Both the position numbers and the translations under genes were made by a program. A stretch of DNA of 64,000 bases, from positions 56,508 through 120,507 of the forward strand of contig JAIUOK010000006.1 of assembly GCA_020161245.1 (NCBI GenBank), given 5' to 3'. The notes below the pieces were generated by a model that made no database searches, was not told where the DNA came from, and saw only the letters and a program-made list of their open reading frames with translations. Origin of the DNA: Actinomycetota bacterium (GTDB lineage Bacteria > Actinomycetota > Actinomycetes > S36-B12 > CAIYMF01). Shown here one piece after another: positions 47,830 through 55,221 of the stretch (position 1 is its first letter; every line of letters begins with the position of its first letter).

Positions 47830-48051
47830 GCGGGTCCTGCTCCGAAGCACTGCTCATGAGGTGCTGCAGACGATCCGTGCGTGCGCGTGCGCGTGGGGTG
47901 AGGTGATGGTCCGAATGGCGTCGTCCGTTCGCCGGATTCCGTCGTCCTGCGCGGAATCCGTAACGACGCCGCGCCTACCGTCGATTCACAGGGGCCGCGG
48001 ATTCCGCCGCGGGCCTCGGCTGCAGCCAGCACTGTGAGGAGGACGCCGCCC

Positions 48052-48600
48052 GTGCATCGGACCCGTGAAGGCCTCGTCGTACGCACCGACGTCATGCCCC
48101 AGGTGGGACGTGGCTGGTACGCCGACCCCGACGCCGTCATCGACCTCACCGACGGCGCGTCGCCTGCCTCGGCCGACCGTCCGCTGCGCTACTGGGACGG
48201 CTCCCGCTGGGCGCCGCCGGCCCGTCGCGGCGACCGCTGGCTGGTGTGGACGTGGTACGCCGTCGCCAGCCTGCTGCCCGCCGTCGTGCTGCTGCTCATG
48301 CCCGTCCTCGGCGCGACCGGCGTCGACCACGCGCTGCTCGACCGGTTCCTGCCGGCGCACATCGAGGGCACGGCGCGCGCCGACGAGCTGCTGCACGACG
48401 TCGTCGCCGCCACCGCGTGGACCGCGGTGCTCGTGGCGTGCTGGGGCGTCGTGCTCGGCGGCGTGATGTTCGCCGAGATCCGGCTGCGCTGCCGGACGGC
48501 GGCCCGCTGGTACGTCGCCGCCTGGTGGATCGCCGCCGCGCTCATCGTGCTCGCGCTCGCCCTCACCGTGGCCACCCCGGCCATCGCCGCTGCGCTCTGA
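48052..48600 (+). CDS. Membrane protein with DUF2510-like N-terminus
   Basis: A 182-residue protein of unknown function. The N-terminal motif GWYADPD ... LRYWDGSRW resembles the short DUF2510 module common in actinobacterial membrane proteins. About three membrane segments follow (WTWYAVASLLPAVVLLLMPV, TAWTAVLVACWGVVLGGVMF, WYVAAWWIAAALIVLALAL). The GTG at 48052 follows GAGGAGG (48036-48042) at ideal distance. It lies 93 bases upstream of the DabBA fusion, which has its own promoter. Confidence 0.75.
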   Translation: MHRTREGLVVRTDVMPQVGRGWYADPDAVIDLTDGASPASADRPLRYWDGSRWAPPARRGDRWLVWTWYAVASLLPAVVLLLMPVLGATGVDHALLDRFLPAHIEGTARADELLHDVVAATAWTAVLVACWGVVLGGVMFAEIRLRCRTAARWYVAAWWIAAALIVLALALTVATPAIAAAL

Positions 48601-48656
48601 CGTCTCCCCGCGGTCCGGACCCCTCGGGGCCGGCGGGGACACGCGCGGGCGCCGAG

Positions 48657-48697
48657 TAGACATGCGAAGAAGATTTCGGGTATAAAACTTCGCATGT
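48657..48697 (+). promoter_or_regulatory. Promoter and palindromic operator of the DabB-DabA fusion gene
   Basis: A TAGACA -35 box (48657-48662), an 18-base spacer and a TATAAA -10 box (48681-48686) are present. The expected transcription start falls at about 48693-48694, on the ATG itself, and no ribosome-binding site is present, so the mRNA is probably leaderless. A perfect 10-base inverted repeat, ACATGCGAAG (48660-48669) with CTTCGCATGT (48688-48697), brackets the -10 box and includes the start codon. Confidence 0.65.
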
Positions 48698-51600
48698 GGG
48701 GACGCAGGGGTGTGGGACTCGCGGGGCTGGCGCTGAGCGCGGTGCCCGCGGCGGTGGTGGCGACGTCGGGCTCGGGCTCGTGGACGGTGCCGGTCGAGCT
48801 CGGTCCGCTGGGGACGTCGGAGATCGGGCTCGTGCTCGACCCCGTCCGCGCGGTGCTGCTCGGCCTGGTGCTGCTGGTGAGCACGGTGGTCGCGGGGTAC
48901 GTGAGCGCCAACCTCGTGGGGCAGCGACGGGTGGGCCGGTTCGCCGGCCTGCAGGTGCTGCTCGCCGCGGCGCTCGTGCTCACCGTGGCCGCGCCGAGCC
49001 TCGTGCAGCTGGCGGCCGCCTGGACGGCGACCAGCTGGGCCACCGCGGCGCTCGTGGGCCACGCCGCCACGGCCCCCGCGCTGCGGGCCAGCCGGCGCGT
49101 GCTGCGCAGCCTCCTCATCGGCGACGCCGCCGTCTGGGCGTCCGTGGTCCTGGCAGCTGCCGCGCTCGGCACCACCGACCTCGACGCCGTCGAGCCGGGA
49201 TCCCTTGCGGGCGTGGTCATCGCGGCGCTGCTCGTGATCGGCGGGCTGGTGCGCAGCGCCCAGGTGCCGGTGAGCCGCTGGCTCCAGGAGACCACCGAGG
49301 CGCCCTCGCCCGTCAGCGCGCTGCTGCACGCCGGCGTGGTCAACGGCGTCGGCGTCGTCGTGCTCCTCGCATGGCCGCTCGTGGCCGCGTCGTGGCCGGC
49401 CCGCGCGATCGCCGTCGCCGCCGGTGCCGCGACCATCGCGGTCGGCTGGGCCACGTCGCGGGTGCGCCCGGACGTCAAGGGCCGCCTGGTCTCCTCGACC
49501 TCGGCGCAGATGGGCTACCTCGCCGTCGTCGCGGGCCTCGGGGTGCCGGCCGCGGTGCTCGTGCACGTCGTCGGTCACGGCCTCTGGAAGGCCGCCCTGT
49601 TCCTCGGCGCCGGGTCGGCGGTCGACCGGGTGCGGCGCGCCGGCGCCGAGGGCCACGCCCCTGCCCGGGCCTCCCGTGCCGCTGCGGCGGCGGTCGCGGC
49701 GTCGGCCGTCGTCGTCGCCGCGGCACTGCCCTGGCCGGGCGAGAGCCTGCTCGCGACGCCGTCCACGCTGCTCCTCGTGGCCGCGGCCGCCCTCACCGCC
49801 GCCGTGGCCGCCGCCGGCGCGCTGGGCCGCGGCCGCGCGGCCGGCTCCTTGTCGGTGGCCGGCGTCGCTGCTGCCGGCGCGGCCTACATCGTGATCGTGC
49901 GCGCCGTGGAGACGTCGCTCGCCGACGAGCTGCCGCTCGCGGCCGCCGCGTGGGGCGAGCCCGGCTCGTGGATCGAGCTCGCCGTCGTCGTCGGGCTCGC
50001 CGCTGCCGCGCTGGTCGCCTGGCGCCTCGACCGCGCCGCCTCGGCGGGCGGCGCCCCGCGGGTCGTGGCCTGGGCCGCGCGCCAGACCCTGCCCACCCCG
50101 CCGGTGCGCCGCATCGCTGTCGAGGCGGTCGAGCAGCCCGAGGCGCTGCTCGACGCGAAGGACGTGCGGGCCGCGGTCGACGTCGTGTCCGACGTCGTCG
50201 CCCCGCTCTGGCCGCTGCACGCCTTCGTCGCGAGCAACCCGCTCGCCGGCCTCGAGGTGCTGCCCTTCCGCGACGCCCTCGCCGCCGCTTCGGTCTCGTG
50301 GGGCAGCCGCCCCGGTATCGACGCCGCCATGTTCCGTGCCGCGGTGCGCGAGGGCGCCGTCGACCGCGACGTGCTCGCGCGGATCTGCGCCGAGGTGGCC
50401 CCCGGGCCGGACCTCGTCATCAACTCGCCCGTACGCACCCGCACCGAGCTGGTCGAGGCGCTGCTCGCCGACGACGCCGTCGAGCCGCGGGTCGCGCAGG
50501 CCACCGCCGCGCGGCTGGAGCAGCTCGGCCGGTGGATGCGCACGGTCGAGCCGGTGCGTACGCCGGGGGAGCGGGCGGCCATCGCCGACCCGCGCCTGGC
50601 CGACGTGCAGCAGCGCGTCCGCGACCTCGTGTCGATGCACGCGGCTCGCGTGCTCGGCGACCCGGCATGGCCCGCGCAGCACGGGATCTGGGGCGCGCTC
50701 CTCGACGACGACGTCGACCGCGCGCTCGGCCTCGACGGCGCCGACGCCGTGCTGGCGCACCTGCCGCGCCACGCGCCCGACGCCATCGCCGAGCTCGCCT
50801 CGCGCCTGCACGCCGAGGGCCACGAGGTCGTGCCGGTGCTCACCAGGCTGCTCGCTCGCGATCCCGGCTACGTCGCGCACCTGCAGTGGCGCCGCCGGGT
50901 CGGCCTCGACGTCGGCCACGCGCGCATCGAGGACCTGCTCGCCGCCCGGCTCGCGCTCGACGTCGTCGTCGCGGCTGCCGGCCCGCAGGAGATGTCCGCG
51001 ACCGGCGCCGACGACGAGCTCGCCGCCGCCGTGGCCGTGCTCGTGCAGGCCATCGGCCTCGACCTCGCCGAGACCAGCGACGACGTGCTGCTGGCACTCT
51101 CCGAGATCGCCGACGCCGTCCTGCTCGCCGGGCCCGAGATGCTGCGCTTGCGCGCCTGGGAGGAGTCGTACCGCGAGCCGCTGCTGGCACGGGTCGCGGG
51201 ACGCGCCGCCGCCCTCGCCGACGGCGTTCGCACGACGCCGGAATCGCCTGAGGCCCAGGTGATCACGTGCATCGACGTCCGCTCCGAGCCGATGCGCCGC
51301 CGCCTCGAGGCGCGGGGGCCGTGGGAGACCCTCGGCGCCGCCGGCTTCTTCGGCATCCCGCTGCGCCACGTCGGGCCCACGGGCGCCGTCAGCGACCGCC
51401 TGCCCGCGCTGCTGCTGCCCGACCGCCAGGTGGCCGAGACCGGCACCTGCTCGGTGGGCGCCCAGGCCGGGTCGTCGATGGAGCACGCCGCGCATGCGCC
51501 CGACCACGTGGGCGGTGCGGCGTTCGCGCTGGCCGACGCCGCCGGCTGGGCGGCCGGGCCGTGGGCGGTGCTGCGCACGTTCGCGCCGCGCACGGCCGAC

Positions 51601-52716
51601 CGGCTGGCCCACCGCTGGCAGCGCTCGCACGCGCCGCGCTCCACGGATCTGGTCGTCGAGGGCGACGACCTGTCGCCGCTCGGCTTCAGCCTCGACGAGC
51701 TGGCCGACCGCGCGCAGGCCTTTCTCGCCGTCTGCGGCCTCGACCGCCCGGCGCCGCTCGTGCTGCTGCTCGGCCACGGCGCCCACGTCACCAACCAGCC
51801 GCACGTCGCGGCGTACGACTGCGGAGCCTGCGGCGGCAACCCCGGAGACGTCAGCGCGCGGACGATGGCGCGGGTGCTCAACGACGTCCGGGTGCGCGAC
51901 GTGCTCGCCGTGCGCGGCGTGAGCATCCCGGCCGACACGGTGTTCGCCGCGGCGCTGCACGGCACGACCGACGCCACGGTCGAGGTGCTCAGCGAGGTGC
52001 CGGCGTCGCACCGCGAGATCCTCGGGCGCGTCGTCGCCGATCTGCGCGACGCGCTGGCCGAGGGCACCGACGTCGGCCTGCAGGCCACGCGCGCCTCCGA
52101 CTGGGCGCAGGCGCGGCCCGAGTGGGGCCTGGCCCGCAACGCCGCGCTGATCATCGGGCCGCGCTCGCTCACGGCCGGCCTCGACCTCGACGGCCGCGCG
52201 TTCCTGCACTCCTACCGCCACGACCTCGACGCCGACGGCAGCAGCCTCGAGTTCCTGCTCACCGCGCCGATGGTGGTCGCGCAGTGGATCAGCTCGCAGT
52301 ACTGGGCGGCCACGGTCGACCCGGAGCGCTTCGGCGCCGGCGACAAGACGCTGCACAACATCGTCTGCCGCCCGGACTCGGGGCCGTCGTCGCTGACCGG
52401 CGTCCTCGTGGGCGCGCGCGGCGACCTGCGCCTCGGCATCCCGTGGCAGGCGGTGTCCGAGCACGCGCCCGTCGACGGCGTCTGGCCCGCGCTGCCGCAC
52501 CACGAGCCGCTGCGCCTGCTCGTCGTCGTCGCCGCGGAGCGCTCGGCGATCGACGCGGTGCTCGCCCGTCGCGACGAGGCCGCCCGCCTCGTCGCCGGCG
52601 AGTGGGTCACCCTCGTCGCCGTCGAGCCCTCGACCGGCCACCTCCACCAGCGCACCCCGCACGGCACCTGGACCGACGTCTCGCCCACCTCCGACGACGA
52701 CCGAGTCACCGCCTGA
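48694..52716 (+). CDS. Single-chain DabB-DabA fusion, inorganic carbon transporter family
   Basis: A 1,340-residue protein. Residues ~1-460 are a NuoL/MrpA-like proton-conducting membrane module (DabB-like), with SRWLQETTEAPSPVSALLHA (~193-212) and HVVGHGLWKAALFLGAGS (~286-303). Residues ~470-1,340 are a full DUF2309/DabA module. Its beta-carbonic-anhydrase-like zinc ligands are present: Cys859 and Asp861 in ITCIDVRSEP, His1028 in LLGHGAH and Cys1043 in YDCGACGGN. The spacing is close to characterised DabA. DAB complexes use a cation gradient to drive CO2 hydration and bicarbonate accumulation. Characterised systems have separate dabA and dabB genes; here both are in one reading frame. Confidence 0.88.
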   Translation: MWGRRGVGLAGLALSAVPAAVVATSGSGSWTVPVELGPLGTSEIGLVLDPVRAVLLGLVLLVSTVVAGYVSANLVGQRRVGRFAGLQVLLAAALVLTVAAPSLVQLAAAWTATSWATAALVGHAATAPALRASRRVLRSLLIGDAAVWASVVLAAAALGTTDLDAVEPGSLAGVVIAALLVIGGLVRSAQVPVSRWLQETTEAPSPVSALLHAGVVNGVGVVVLLAWPLVAASWPARAIAVAAGAATIAVGWATSRVRPDVKGRLVSSTSAQMGYLAVVAGLGVPAAVLVHVVGHGLWKAALFLGAGSAVDRVRRAGAEGHAPARASRAAAAAVAASAVVVAAALPWPGESLLATPSTLLLVAAAALTAAVAAAGALGRGRAAGSLSVAGVAAAGAAYIVIVRAVETSLADELPLAAAAWGEPGSWIELAVVVGLAAAALVAWRLDRAASAGGAPRVVAWAARQTLPTPPVRRIAVEAVEQPEALLDAKDVRAAVDVVSDVVAPLWPLHAFVASNPLAGLEVLPFRDALAAASVSWGSRPGIDAAMFRAAVREGAVDRDVLARICAEVAPGPDLVINSPVRTRTELVEALLADDAVEPRVAQATAARLEQLGRWMRTVEPVRTPGERAAIADPRLADVQQRVRDLVSMHAARVLGDPAWPAQHGIWGALLDDDVDRALGLDGADAVLAHLPRHAPDAIAELASRLHAEGHEVVPVLTRLLARDPGYVAHLQWRRRVGLDVGHARIEDLLAARLALDVVVAAAGPQEMSATGADDELAAAVAVLVQAIGLDLAETSDDVLLALSEIADAVLLAGPEMLRLRAWEESYREPLLARVAGRAAALADGVRTTPESPEAQVITCIDVRSEPMRRRLEARGPWETLGAAGFFGIPLRHVGPTGAVSDRLPALLLPDRQVAETGTCSVGAQAGSSMEHAAHAPDHVGGAAFALADAAGWAAGPWAVLRTFAPRTADRLAHRWQRSHAPRSTDLVVEGDDLSPLGFSLDELADRAQAFLAVCGLDRPAPLVLLLGHGAHVTNQPHVAAYDCGACGGNPGDVSARTMARVLNDVRVRDVLAVRGVSIPADTVFAAALHGTTDATVEVLSEVPASHREILGRVVADLRDALAEGTDVGLQATRASDWAQARPEWGLARNAALIIGPRSLTAGLDLDGRAFLHSYRHDLDADGSSLEFLLTAPMVVAQWISSQYWAATVDPERFGAGDKTLHNIVCRPDSGPSSLTGVLVGARGDLRLGIPWQAVSEHAPVDGVWPALPHHEPLRLLVVVAAERSAIDAVLARRDEAARLVAGEWVTLVAVEPSTGHLHQRTPHGTWTDVSPTSDDDRVTA

Positions 52717-53520: not shown

Positions 53521-55221
53521 TTAGCGGCTGGCGATGACGCCGTCGATGCGGACGGGCTTGCCGCTCGAGGCGACGACGACGCGCACGTGGGCTTTGCGCG
53601 CCGAGAACCGGGGGAGCAGCAGGATCTTCTGGGCTGCGTAGGTGCCGGCCAGCGAGACGCGCCCGACTTTGCGGCCGCCGACGAAGACGTCGACCGCGCC
53701 GCAGCCCGGGCAGGTGGTGGCGACCAGGCCCGCGCGCGTCACCGGCCCGGGCAGGGCCACGTAGAGCGCGGCCCCCTTGCTCGTGGTGCTCGAGACGGAG
53801 GCCGCGAGCCAGCGCGGATCGTTGGTGCGCCGCCACCTGCCCTCGGTGAACAGGTCGCGGTCGTCCATGGGCAGCTCGGTGCAGCGCGGCACGGTGCGCG
53901 TGGTGCGGCTGGTGAAGTCGGTGAGCGAGAGCCGGAAGCAGTAGCGGTGGCCCGTGAAGGCCACGTAAGTGCGCGAGCTGCCCTTCATGGCGCGTGCGCC
54001 GACCAGCCAGCCGGTCGACGGGATCCGCTCGAACGACGGCGTGAAGGTGAGCTGCAGGTCGTTCTGCGCGATCCCGAGGCCGTTGCCGTCCGACGCCGTC
54101 CACGCCAGCGGGATGCGCCGGGTCAGGGAGTACGTCGGCAGCGCCGCCATGCTGCCGGTGGGCGCGGCGGTGTCGAGCGGCTCGGTGCAGTCGCCGTGGT
54201 CGTGGTCCGCAGCGCCGTTGGCGTCGGGGCACATGGCGCCGGTCCAGACGACGCCGTCGGTGGTCGCCCCGGTCAGATCGGCCCCCAGCAGGTCCGCGCC
54301 CGAGAGGTCGGCGCCGGTGAGGTCGGCGTCGACGAGCACGGCGTCCCGGAAGGTCGTGCTGCGGAGGTCGGCGCCGCTGAGGTCGGCGCCGGTCAGGTCA
54401 GCGCCGTAGAAGTTGCTGTCGTGCAGGTCGCGCCCGTGCAGGTCGATGCCGGCGACGTCGGTGCCGACGAAGCTCACGCTCGGCCCGACGAGGTTGCCGT
54501 CGACGAAGGCGTAGCCCGGCGGGAGGGCGGCCGGTGCGCCCGTCGCGAGCACGATCCCGAACCGGCGGAACGTGGCCGACGACAGGTCCATCCCTTCGAC
54601 GTCGCTTCCAGAGAGAAGCACGTTGGTGAAGACGGCGTGCGACAGGTCCAGACCGGAGAGGTCGGCGTTGTACGCGGCGGTCGAGGTTGCCCTCATGTAC
54701 GGGCCCCAGAGGTTCGGCCCCTGGACGACCCAGCCCTGCGGGAGCCCGATGGGCTGACCGCTGGCGCTGTTGAACGTGCCGCCATCGAGGAGCGCGCCGG
54801 TGAAGTCGGCACCTCGCACGTCCATGCTCTCGACGACGGCGTTTCGGAAGTCCGCACCTGACAGATCGGCGTTCAGGAAGGTCACGGTGTCCAACCGGGC
54901 GCCGTCGAACGTGGCGTCGGACAGGTCGGCGCCGGTCAGGTCGGCGACGTAGATCCACGCGTTGCGGAGGTCCGCCCCCGAGAGGTTGGCTCCCTCGAGA
55001 TGCACCATCGTGAGCCGGGCGCCCCGGACCGTGCCGTCCGGCAGCACGGTGAACAGCGAGCAGCCCGACCAGTCGACGCCGGGGCTCGGTGCGGGGGTCA
55101 GCTCGCCGGTGGGCGACACGGTGGGGCAGGTCGCGGCGCCGGCGGCGGGAGTCGCCACCAGGCCCATGCCGGCTGCCAGTGCTGCGGCCGCGATGAGCGC
55201 AGCGGCACGTCGTCGACGCAT
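53521..55221 (-). CDS. Secreted pentapeptide-repeat protein
   Basis: A 566-residue protein. The signal peptide (RRRRAAALIAAAALAAGMGL, cleavage likely after PAAGA) is followed by two stretches of A(D/N)LxG pentapeptide repeats: ~65-150 (GANLSGADLRNA, ADLTGADLSDATF) and ~175-330 (GADLTGADLSGADLRS, ADLTGADLSGADLLGADLTG). These are interrupted by GLPQGW-type spacers. A ~220-residue non-repeat C-terminus follows with several Cys (HRYCFRLSL, TTCPGCGAVDVF). Pentapeptide repeats form a right-handed beta helix. Export suggests a surface role, not gyrase protection. Unknown function. Confidence 0.87.
   Translation of the reverse strand: MRRRRAAALIAAAALAAGMGLVATPAAGAATCPTVSPTGELTPAPSPGVDWSGCSLFTVLPDGTVRGARLTMVHLEGANLSGADLRNAWIYVADLTGADLSDATFDGARLDTVTFLNADLSGADFRNAVVESMDVRGADFTGALLDGGTFNSASGQPIGLPQGWVVQGPNLWGPYMRATSTAAYNADLSGLDLSHAVFTNVLLSGSDVEGMDLSSATFRRFGIVLATGAPAALPPGYAFVDGNLVGPSVSFVGTDVAGIDLHGRDLHDSNFYGADLTGADLSGADLRSTTFRDAVLVDADLTGADLSGADLLGADLTGATTDGVVWTGAMCPDANGAADHDHGDCTEPLDTAAPTGSMAALPTYSLTRRIPLAWTASDGNGLGIAQNDLQLTFTPSFERIPSTGWLVGARAMKGSSRTYVAFTGHRYCFRLSLTDFTSRTTRTVPRCTELPMDDRDLFTEGRWRRTNDPRWLAASVSSTTSKGAALYVALPGPVTRAGLVATTCPGCGAVDVFVGGRKVGRVSLAGTYAAQKILLLPRFSARKAHVRVVVASSGKPVRIDGVIASR

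Follow-up and report, generated by a model that had tools for sequence, protein, structure and literature searches.

The closest described relatives of the gene examined here are the DABs, inorganic-carbon accumulators that pair a proton-channel-like membrane subunit (DabB) with a zinc-binding subunit (DabA). DAB2 of Halothiobacillus neapolitanus (Protein Data Bank entry 9rd0) is encoded by two genes in nature, and its wild-type two-chain complex is unstable and prone to dissociation; the cryo-electron microscopy work used an engineered DabB-then-DabA fusion, which did not significantly affect growth yield and mirrors the natural fused gene of Acidimicrobium ferrooxidans (PMC13144422). This single-subunit DAC encoded by one gene was also described in PMC6689103. 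The homologous two-subunit MpsAB of Staphylococcus aureus supplies inorganic carbon in a heterotroph (PMC6689103). Here, we analyzed a 64,000-nt window of contig JAIUOK010000006.1 from an Actinomycetota bacterium, in which DabB and DabA are encoded as one chain with a Cys-Asp-Arg-His-Cys site, the proton-path residues, an acidic finger residue (Asp948), and a promoter spacer of the type found at SbtA genes, all of them read from the sequence. Quite probably, this fusion is a proton-motive-force-driven pump that would convert CO2 one way into bicarbonate, feed ordinary carboxylases in a heterotroph, and be controlled by a MarR-like regulator. The features of the gene are as follows.

48694..52716, + strand: single-chain DAB (DabB-DabA fusion), 1,340 aa, one ATG-started, stop-free frame
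48694..50043, + strand: DabB half, residues 1-450 (model and alignments)
50083..50154, + strand: inter-domain linker, residues 464-487 (structure model)
50155..52713, + strand: DabA half, residues 488-1340, beta-carbonic-anhydrase-like (PF10070 and fold matches)
51268..51282, + strand: active-site motif Cys859-x-Asp861-x-Arg863, a zinc ligand plus the Asp-Arg dyad (alignments)
51775..51822, + strand: zinc ligands His1028 (51775-51777) and Cys1043 (51820-51822) (alignments)
51454..51582, + strand: finger helices, residues 921-938 and 943-963, with the Asp948 codon at 51535-51537 (alignment and model)

Both domains were found by Pfam within this continuous frame, as an earlier sequence-only reading of the window had proposed: the NuoL-like PF00361 matched residues 100-312 (E 2e-21), and PF10070, the DabA family, matched residues 495-1305 over its full profile (1-747, E 1.9e-171). 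The nearest solved proteins in a phmmer search of the Protein Data Bank were DabA2 (9rd0_A, E 2.1e-77) and DabB2 (9rd0_B, E 1e-27), and the fusion gene was the sole PF10070 match in the source genome (G000:C73:105201). The same reading had held that described DABs are two-gene systems, which is out of date in view of the natural A. ferrooxidans fusion (PMC6689103, PMC13144422) and the engineered DAB2 fusion, active and in the same order as the chain encoded here (PMC13144422); we therefore do not regard the fusion as such as a novelty.

Pairwise and multiple alignments placed Cys859, Asp861, His1028, and Cys1043 on Cys351, Asp353, His524, and Cys539 of DabA2, with Arg863 as the counterpart of Arg355. 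Among 108 fused sequences (that of the window and 107 of the 109 two-domain matches listed, the short P0101 and P0110 being dropped), Cys859, Asp861, and Arg863 were conserved in all, and His1028 and Cys1043 in 107. The zinc ligands of DAB2 are Cys351, His524, and Cys539, while Asp353 is no zinc ligand but pairs with Arg355 in a dyad that holds the zinc-bound water (PMC13144422); hence the four positions previously taken for zinc ligands are all kept, but Asp861 should not be counted as one. The seven DabB residues whose loss impaired DAB2 (S256, H260, K310, S316, H339, H343, and K347; PMC13144422) all have retained counterparts (S208, H212, K262, S268, H291, H295, and K299). On the finger helices of the DabA half, the acidic residue is Asp948, which the multiple alignment places at Glu444 of DabA2; a Pro at this position, given by the pairwise HMMER alignment, was rejected on this basis. 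By analogy, the single-chain DAB most likely works as proposed for DAB2: CO2 would diffuse in, and the buried zinc site would be opened by protons that travel through the DabB half and the finger, a gating that would make hydration one-way.

An AlphaFold2 model of residues 1-1200 of the fusion reached a mean predicted local distance difference test score (pLDDT) of 91.7 and a predicted template modeling score (pTM) of 0.91, and it predicts the finger as a pair of helices and places both halves in a single, well-defined arrangement, in which the finger may be inserted into the DabB half to complete the proton path. The junction at approximately 464-487, for which a structure prediction had been proposed, follows the final helices of the DabB half and precedes the helix with which DabA begins. 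The model of DabA alone gave fold matches to beta-carbonic anhydrases, of which the best in Foldseek, with none below E 0.001, was a carboxysomal beta-carbonic anhydrase (0.016); 9rd0 was not among the fold matches (structure entries up to 8 April 2026).

The DabB half of the model contains 14 long helices, one of them broken, compared with 15 membrane helices in DabB2 (PMC13144422). It starts at about the equivalent of NuoL residue ~28 and so differs from NuoL of complex I in lacking the first helix, and DabA takes the place of the complex I partners. The −10 box TATAAA ends 7 nt upstream of the ATG, and a TATAAT-like box stands 6-7 nt before a possible start in nine of the ten other fused loci read (L042, L043, L044, L153, L155, L156, L158, L168, and L170; the exception is L055), although for several of these the start codon was picked among candidates to fit that spacing. 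This spacing indicates that the fusion transcript is likely leaderless, which would support the ATG and hence the absence of the first helix from the window protein. The loss is not general among fused DABs, judging from sequence length alone: 16 of the 108 fused sequences, including some of the window's own group, have at least 70 residues before the position of window residue 50, against 49 here.

The upstream region contains two features.

48657..48686, + strand: promoter with an operator-like spacer, consisting of TAGACA (48657-48662), an 18-nt spacer holding CGAAGAAGATTTCG, and TATAAA (48681-48686) (matrix)
48660..48697, no strand: perfect 10-bp inverted repeat ACATGCGAAG-N18-CTTCGCATGT, overlapping the start codon (sequence)

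The promoter resembles those of genes for SbtA (PF05982, the Pfam Na+-dependent bicarbonate transporter superfamily) in the same order. Two of these (L172 and L202) consist of TTGACA, an 18-nt spacer CCTGAA..AATTACAGG, and TATTnT, and their consensus, run over both strands of the window, matched best at 48657 (17 of 26 letters). A matrix from seven SbtA-linked sites ranked 48657 first among 127,942 window positions (15.95 bits, the next 1.01), and a matrix from L172 and L202 alone again ranked it first (13.31, the next 4.64). Five of the seven sites were selected because they best matched the consensus of the two; three (L179, L181, and L183) lie, in the other orientation, between a tandem regulator gene and SbtA. 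Of the 12 SbtA-linked loci, five with weak or displaced sites were left out (L185, L190, L191, L193, and L199), as were L194, L153, L156, and L055 from the DAB matrix. AT-richness alone seldom gives the top rank, because only 2/300 and 5/300 matrices with permuted columns gave their top score to a site within that intergenic stretch. Sixty Markov-resampled windows yielded top scores of 11.48 (seven-site) and 12.46 (two-site), and none of 20,000 shufflings of the letters of 48640-48700 scored as well with the seven-site matrix. The strongest site over 80 named loci (33.7 bits) stands directly before a split dabB in Microbacterium, which is independent support for the site. A sigma-70 scanner found no site at the promoter, because TATAAA lacks the final T that the scanner demands. 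The placement between −35 and −10 suggests either repression by steric block or spacer-type activation, and the sequence gives no choice between the two. The inverted repeat had no other copy in its own genome or in 20 relatives and, being confined to one of 21 genomes, is unsupported as a general operator of the regulator.

In relatives, a divergent gene of ~100-120 codons opposite the DAB start encodes a MarR-like winged-helix protein (PF12802, E 7.6e-9). It divergently adjoins the fused DAB in seven of ten loci (L042, L043, L044, L162, L163, L165, and L166) and lies 2.8 kb away in L161; none was found beside the fused DAB in L164, L055, or the window itself. When the count covered the named loci that have a DabB and 700 nt or more of upstream sequence, split DABs included, the regulator was adjacent in 21 of 62 (19/22 in Actinomycetota, 1/2 in Acidobacteriota, 1/3 in Planctomycetota, and 0/35 in others). 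Within the host's order, 41 of 166 genomes carried it: all nine with DAB, 27 of the 53 with SbtA, and five of the 104 with neither. The association with either system was strong (Fisher test, 1.4e-14) and persisted when labels were shuffled within genera (0/20,000 for either system; 0.00055 for DAB). By coordinates, the regulator lay less than 1 kb from SbtA in 17 of those 27 genomes and beside DAB in five of nine. No genome among the 166 had both DAB and SbtA, a lack of overlap that is weak when taken alone (p 0.059).

Since the promoter of the fused gene matches the site beside SbtA genes, one kind of regulator likely controls both inorganic-carbon uptake routes, although SbtA as a protein is unrelated to DAB. 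The MarR-like protein encoded at G000:C41 of the source genome is predicted to bind the −35/−10 spacer and control the fusion gene, and in relatives with SbtA in place of DAB, SbtA is likely under the control of the same family. This tie to SbtA also argues for a role in inorganic-carbon supply in a host without ribulose-1,5-bisphosphate carboxylase/oxygenase (RuBisCO; no PF00016 match in the source genome), where ordinary carboxylations would be the likeliest use of the bicarbonate, in agreement with the earlier suggestion of a heterotroph needing it for carboxylation. CbbR and CmpR are LysR-type regulators of autotrophs. We favor, with moderate confidence, the view that in Actinomycetota a MarR-like switch governs an inorganic-carbon regulon whose pumps are interchangeable, with single-chain DAB in some heterotrophic lineages and SbtA in their relatives, never together in the 166 genomes, and that it acts from an operator between −35 and −10; heterotrophs would then have a carbon-supply regulator of their own, one not related to CbbR and CmpR.

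Observations that weigh against a bicarbonate-supplying pump under such control concern the regulator, the coupling residues, and the host, and they are set out here with the rival explanations. The regulator of the source genome is unlinked to the fusion gene, lying between a chemotaxis receptor and a permease (G000:C41:5875-6189), and no promoter-type site was found beside it. The regulator family was absent beside all 25 Pseudomonadota DAB loci and from 26 of the 53 SbtA genomes, and none was found beside four Bacillota DAB loci (S. aureus not among the four). In addition, 31 regulator loci were read of the 42 listed, and within 1.5 kb five had DabB, 12 had SbtA, and 14 had neither. The regulator and its site might therefore answer to another cue, such as redox, a metal, or general growth, with their placement at DAB and SbtA being incidental; some regulators stand by dehydrogenase or TerC-like genes (named by eye), and the only NCBIfam match of the regulator is a sub-threshold one to ArsR/SmtB metalloregulators. 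We consider this explanation possible but doubtful, given that the regulator is associated with two unrelated inorganic-carbon systems, also within genera, and stands beside split DABs in many Actinomycetota. As side observations, members of the regulator family adjoin genes for TerC-like membrane proteins, as read by eye, in L182, L189, and L198, where related sites score 16.3 bits in L189 and 10.0 bits in L182, and in L188 a related site (16.9 bits) stands directly before a frame named by eye as an isocitrate/isopropylmalate-type dehydrogenase, beside the regulator.

A somewhat less probable alternative is that the fusion is an MpsAB-like, sodium-coupled bicarbonate importer rather than a proton-driven CO2 hydratase. 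MpsAB has been argued to use sodium (PMC13144422), and a common regulator family for DAB and SbtA in genomes of the order that never share the two would fit either substrate. This is made unlikely by the retained active site of a carbonic anhydrase and proton path of the NuoL type, and by the behavior of DAB2, which had no need of sodium and failed to rescue a mutant in a sodium transporter (PMC13144422).

It is more unlikely still that the fusion is real with its coupling weakened or lost through Asp948 and Arg187, leaving another role such as CO2 sensing or a residual ion leak. Glu444 of DAB2 is essential, its change to Ala or Gln having abolished function, and the text of PMC13144422 makes no mention of an E444D variant; activity with Asp948 would thus not be guaranteed. 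The finger residue is Asp in only ten of the 108 fused sequences, among them the nearest relatives P0002-P0005 and five distant ones, against 97 Glu and one gap. Two further DAB2 residues differ: Lys235 is Arg187 here, and Arg in 107 of the 108 fused sequences, and Arg182 is Leu141. Against a loss of coupling, the finger residue is acidic in all 107 ungapped fused sequences (in 76 split ones it is E in 68, D in five, Q in two, and H in one), the zinc site is retained in nearly all fused sequences, the gene retains its promoter site, and K235A in DAB2 only lowered the yield (PMC13144422).

On the side of the host, the source genome, in which SbtA was not found, has one PF00484 beta-carbonic anhydrase-like gene with Cys-Asp and His-Cys motifs (G000:C83) and no PF00194 carbonic anhydrase match. 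Because of that gene and its ligand motifs, the pump need not be essential, and DAB as the host's only CO2-hydrating enzyme was rejected. DAB was found in nine of the 166 genomes of the order by a scan that scored three candidates per genome and may miss some; its matches lie in one open frame in seven of the nine, and in G009 and G533 the genes are cut by contig ends. Within the host's genus, it was found in four of 11 genomes and was absent from seven. None of the four DAB genomes of the genus has the PF00484 type whose open frame is ~230 codons long (small numbers); of the seven without DAB, four have it, G008 has a fragment only, and G005 and G007 lack it. All except G008 carry another PF00484 match. 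The G000:C83 gene (L037) adjoins ferredoxin-reductase-like and sucrase/ferredoxin-like genes (named by eye), a neighborhood that recurs in G010 (L039).

The weakest explanation, an assembly or sequencing artefact, is in effect refuted: although the source assembly comprises 95 contigs, no support for it was found, and a frameshift or stop near residue 465 is very unlikely because homologues P0002 (1,340 aa, 98% identity, from a separate record) and P0003 (1,342 aa, 86%) contain both domains at matching length, and many further fused proteins were found. The all-fused group on the tree described next likewise speaks against an artefact.

The history of the fusion was examined in a DabA tree (FastTree only) of 157 sequences, 81 fused and 76 split, with near-copies, broken, and partial sequences dropped. 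The fused/split label needs seven changes on it, at least four of them forced by well-supported branches, and one group (support 86) consists of 72 fused sequences, including that of the window. Therefore, fusion arose several times, with the window's version seemingly old and stable. L005, which we take to be the A. ferrooxidans fused gene, groups with split DABs of proteobacteria, at a distance from the group of the window, and hence is likely an independent fusion. Among 80 named loci of the genome scan (the best 80 of 569 by likeness to the fused query), four were fused, 69 were split, and seven had no DabB in reach. A fused-to-split rate was not derived from the protein search, in which 109 of 120 listed matches (of 219 found) were fused; this is a property of the search, whose words were taken from residues 1-500, largely the DabB half, and whose length filter drops split DabB. 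Some fused relatives belong to Candidatus Nanopelagicales, as do the named members of the order here. Separately, two loci of other Actinomycetota (L006 in G403 and L009 in G097) encode long DabA proteins of 1,300-1,324 aa with PF10070 over ~1,210 residues, no PF00361, and DabB-like frames on both flanks; L011 resembles them but has a single DabB-like frame in reach.

Around the fusion gene, 48034-48600 upstream encodes a 188-aa protein with a WYADP..RYWDG start, hydrophobic stretches, and only a sub-threshold Pfam match, and 53521-55221 on the − strand encodes a 566-aa pentapeptide-repeat protein with a signal-like N-terminus by eye.

Overall, the fusion and the active site proposed from the sequence alone held up, and the proposed use of bicarbonate is the likeliest one, while the Glu-to-Asp change in the finger, the missing first helix, and the promoter with its regulator had been overlooked. 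Among open-licence papers, none was recognized on this regulator or on fused DABs of the order. As far as the literature was searched, four points seem to be new: the large group of fused sequences only, in which Arg replaces Lys235; the natural occurrence of Asp in the finger; the lack of the first helix in the window protein; and the regulator and site common to DAB and SbtA.

The finding that two unrelated inorganic-carbon systems have matching promoter sites and a regulator family in common offers direct genetic access to the question of why carbon-concentrating pumps are kept by heterotrophs. The all-fused group offers natural single-chain pumps, which are wanted because wild-type two-chain DAB2 is unstable and tends to dissociate (PMC13144422), and with Asp948 nature provides a Glu-to-Asp substitution at the finger residue that is proposed to link protons to catalysis.

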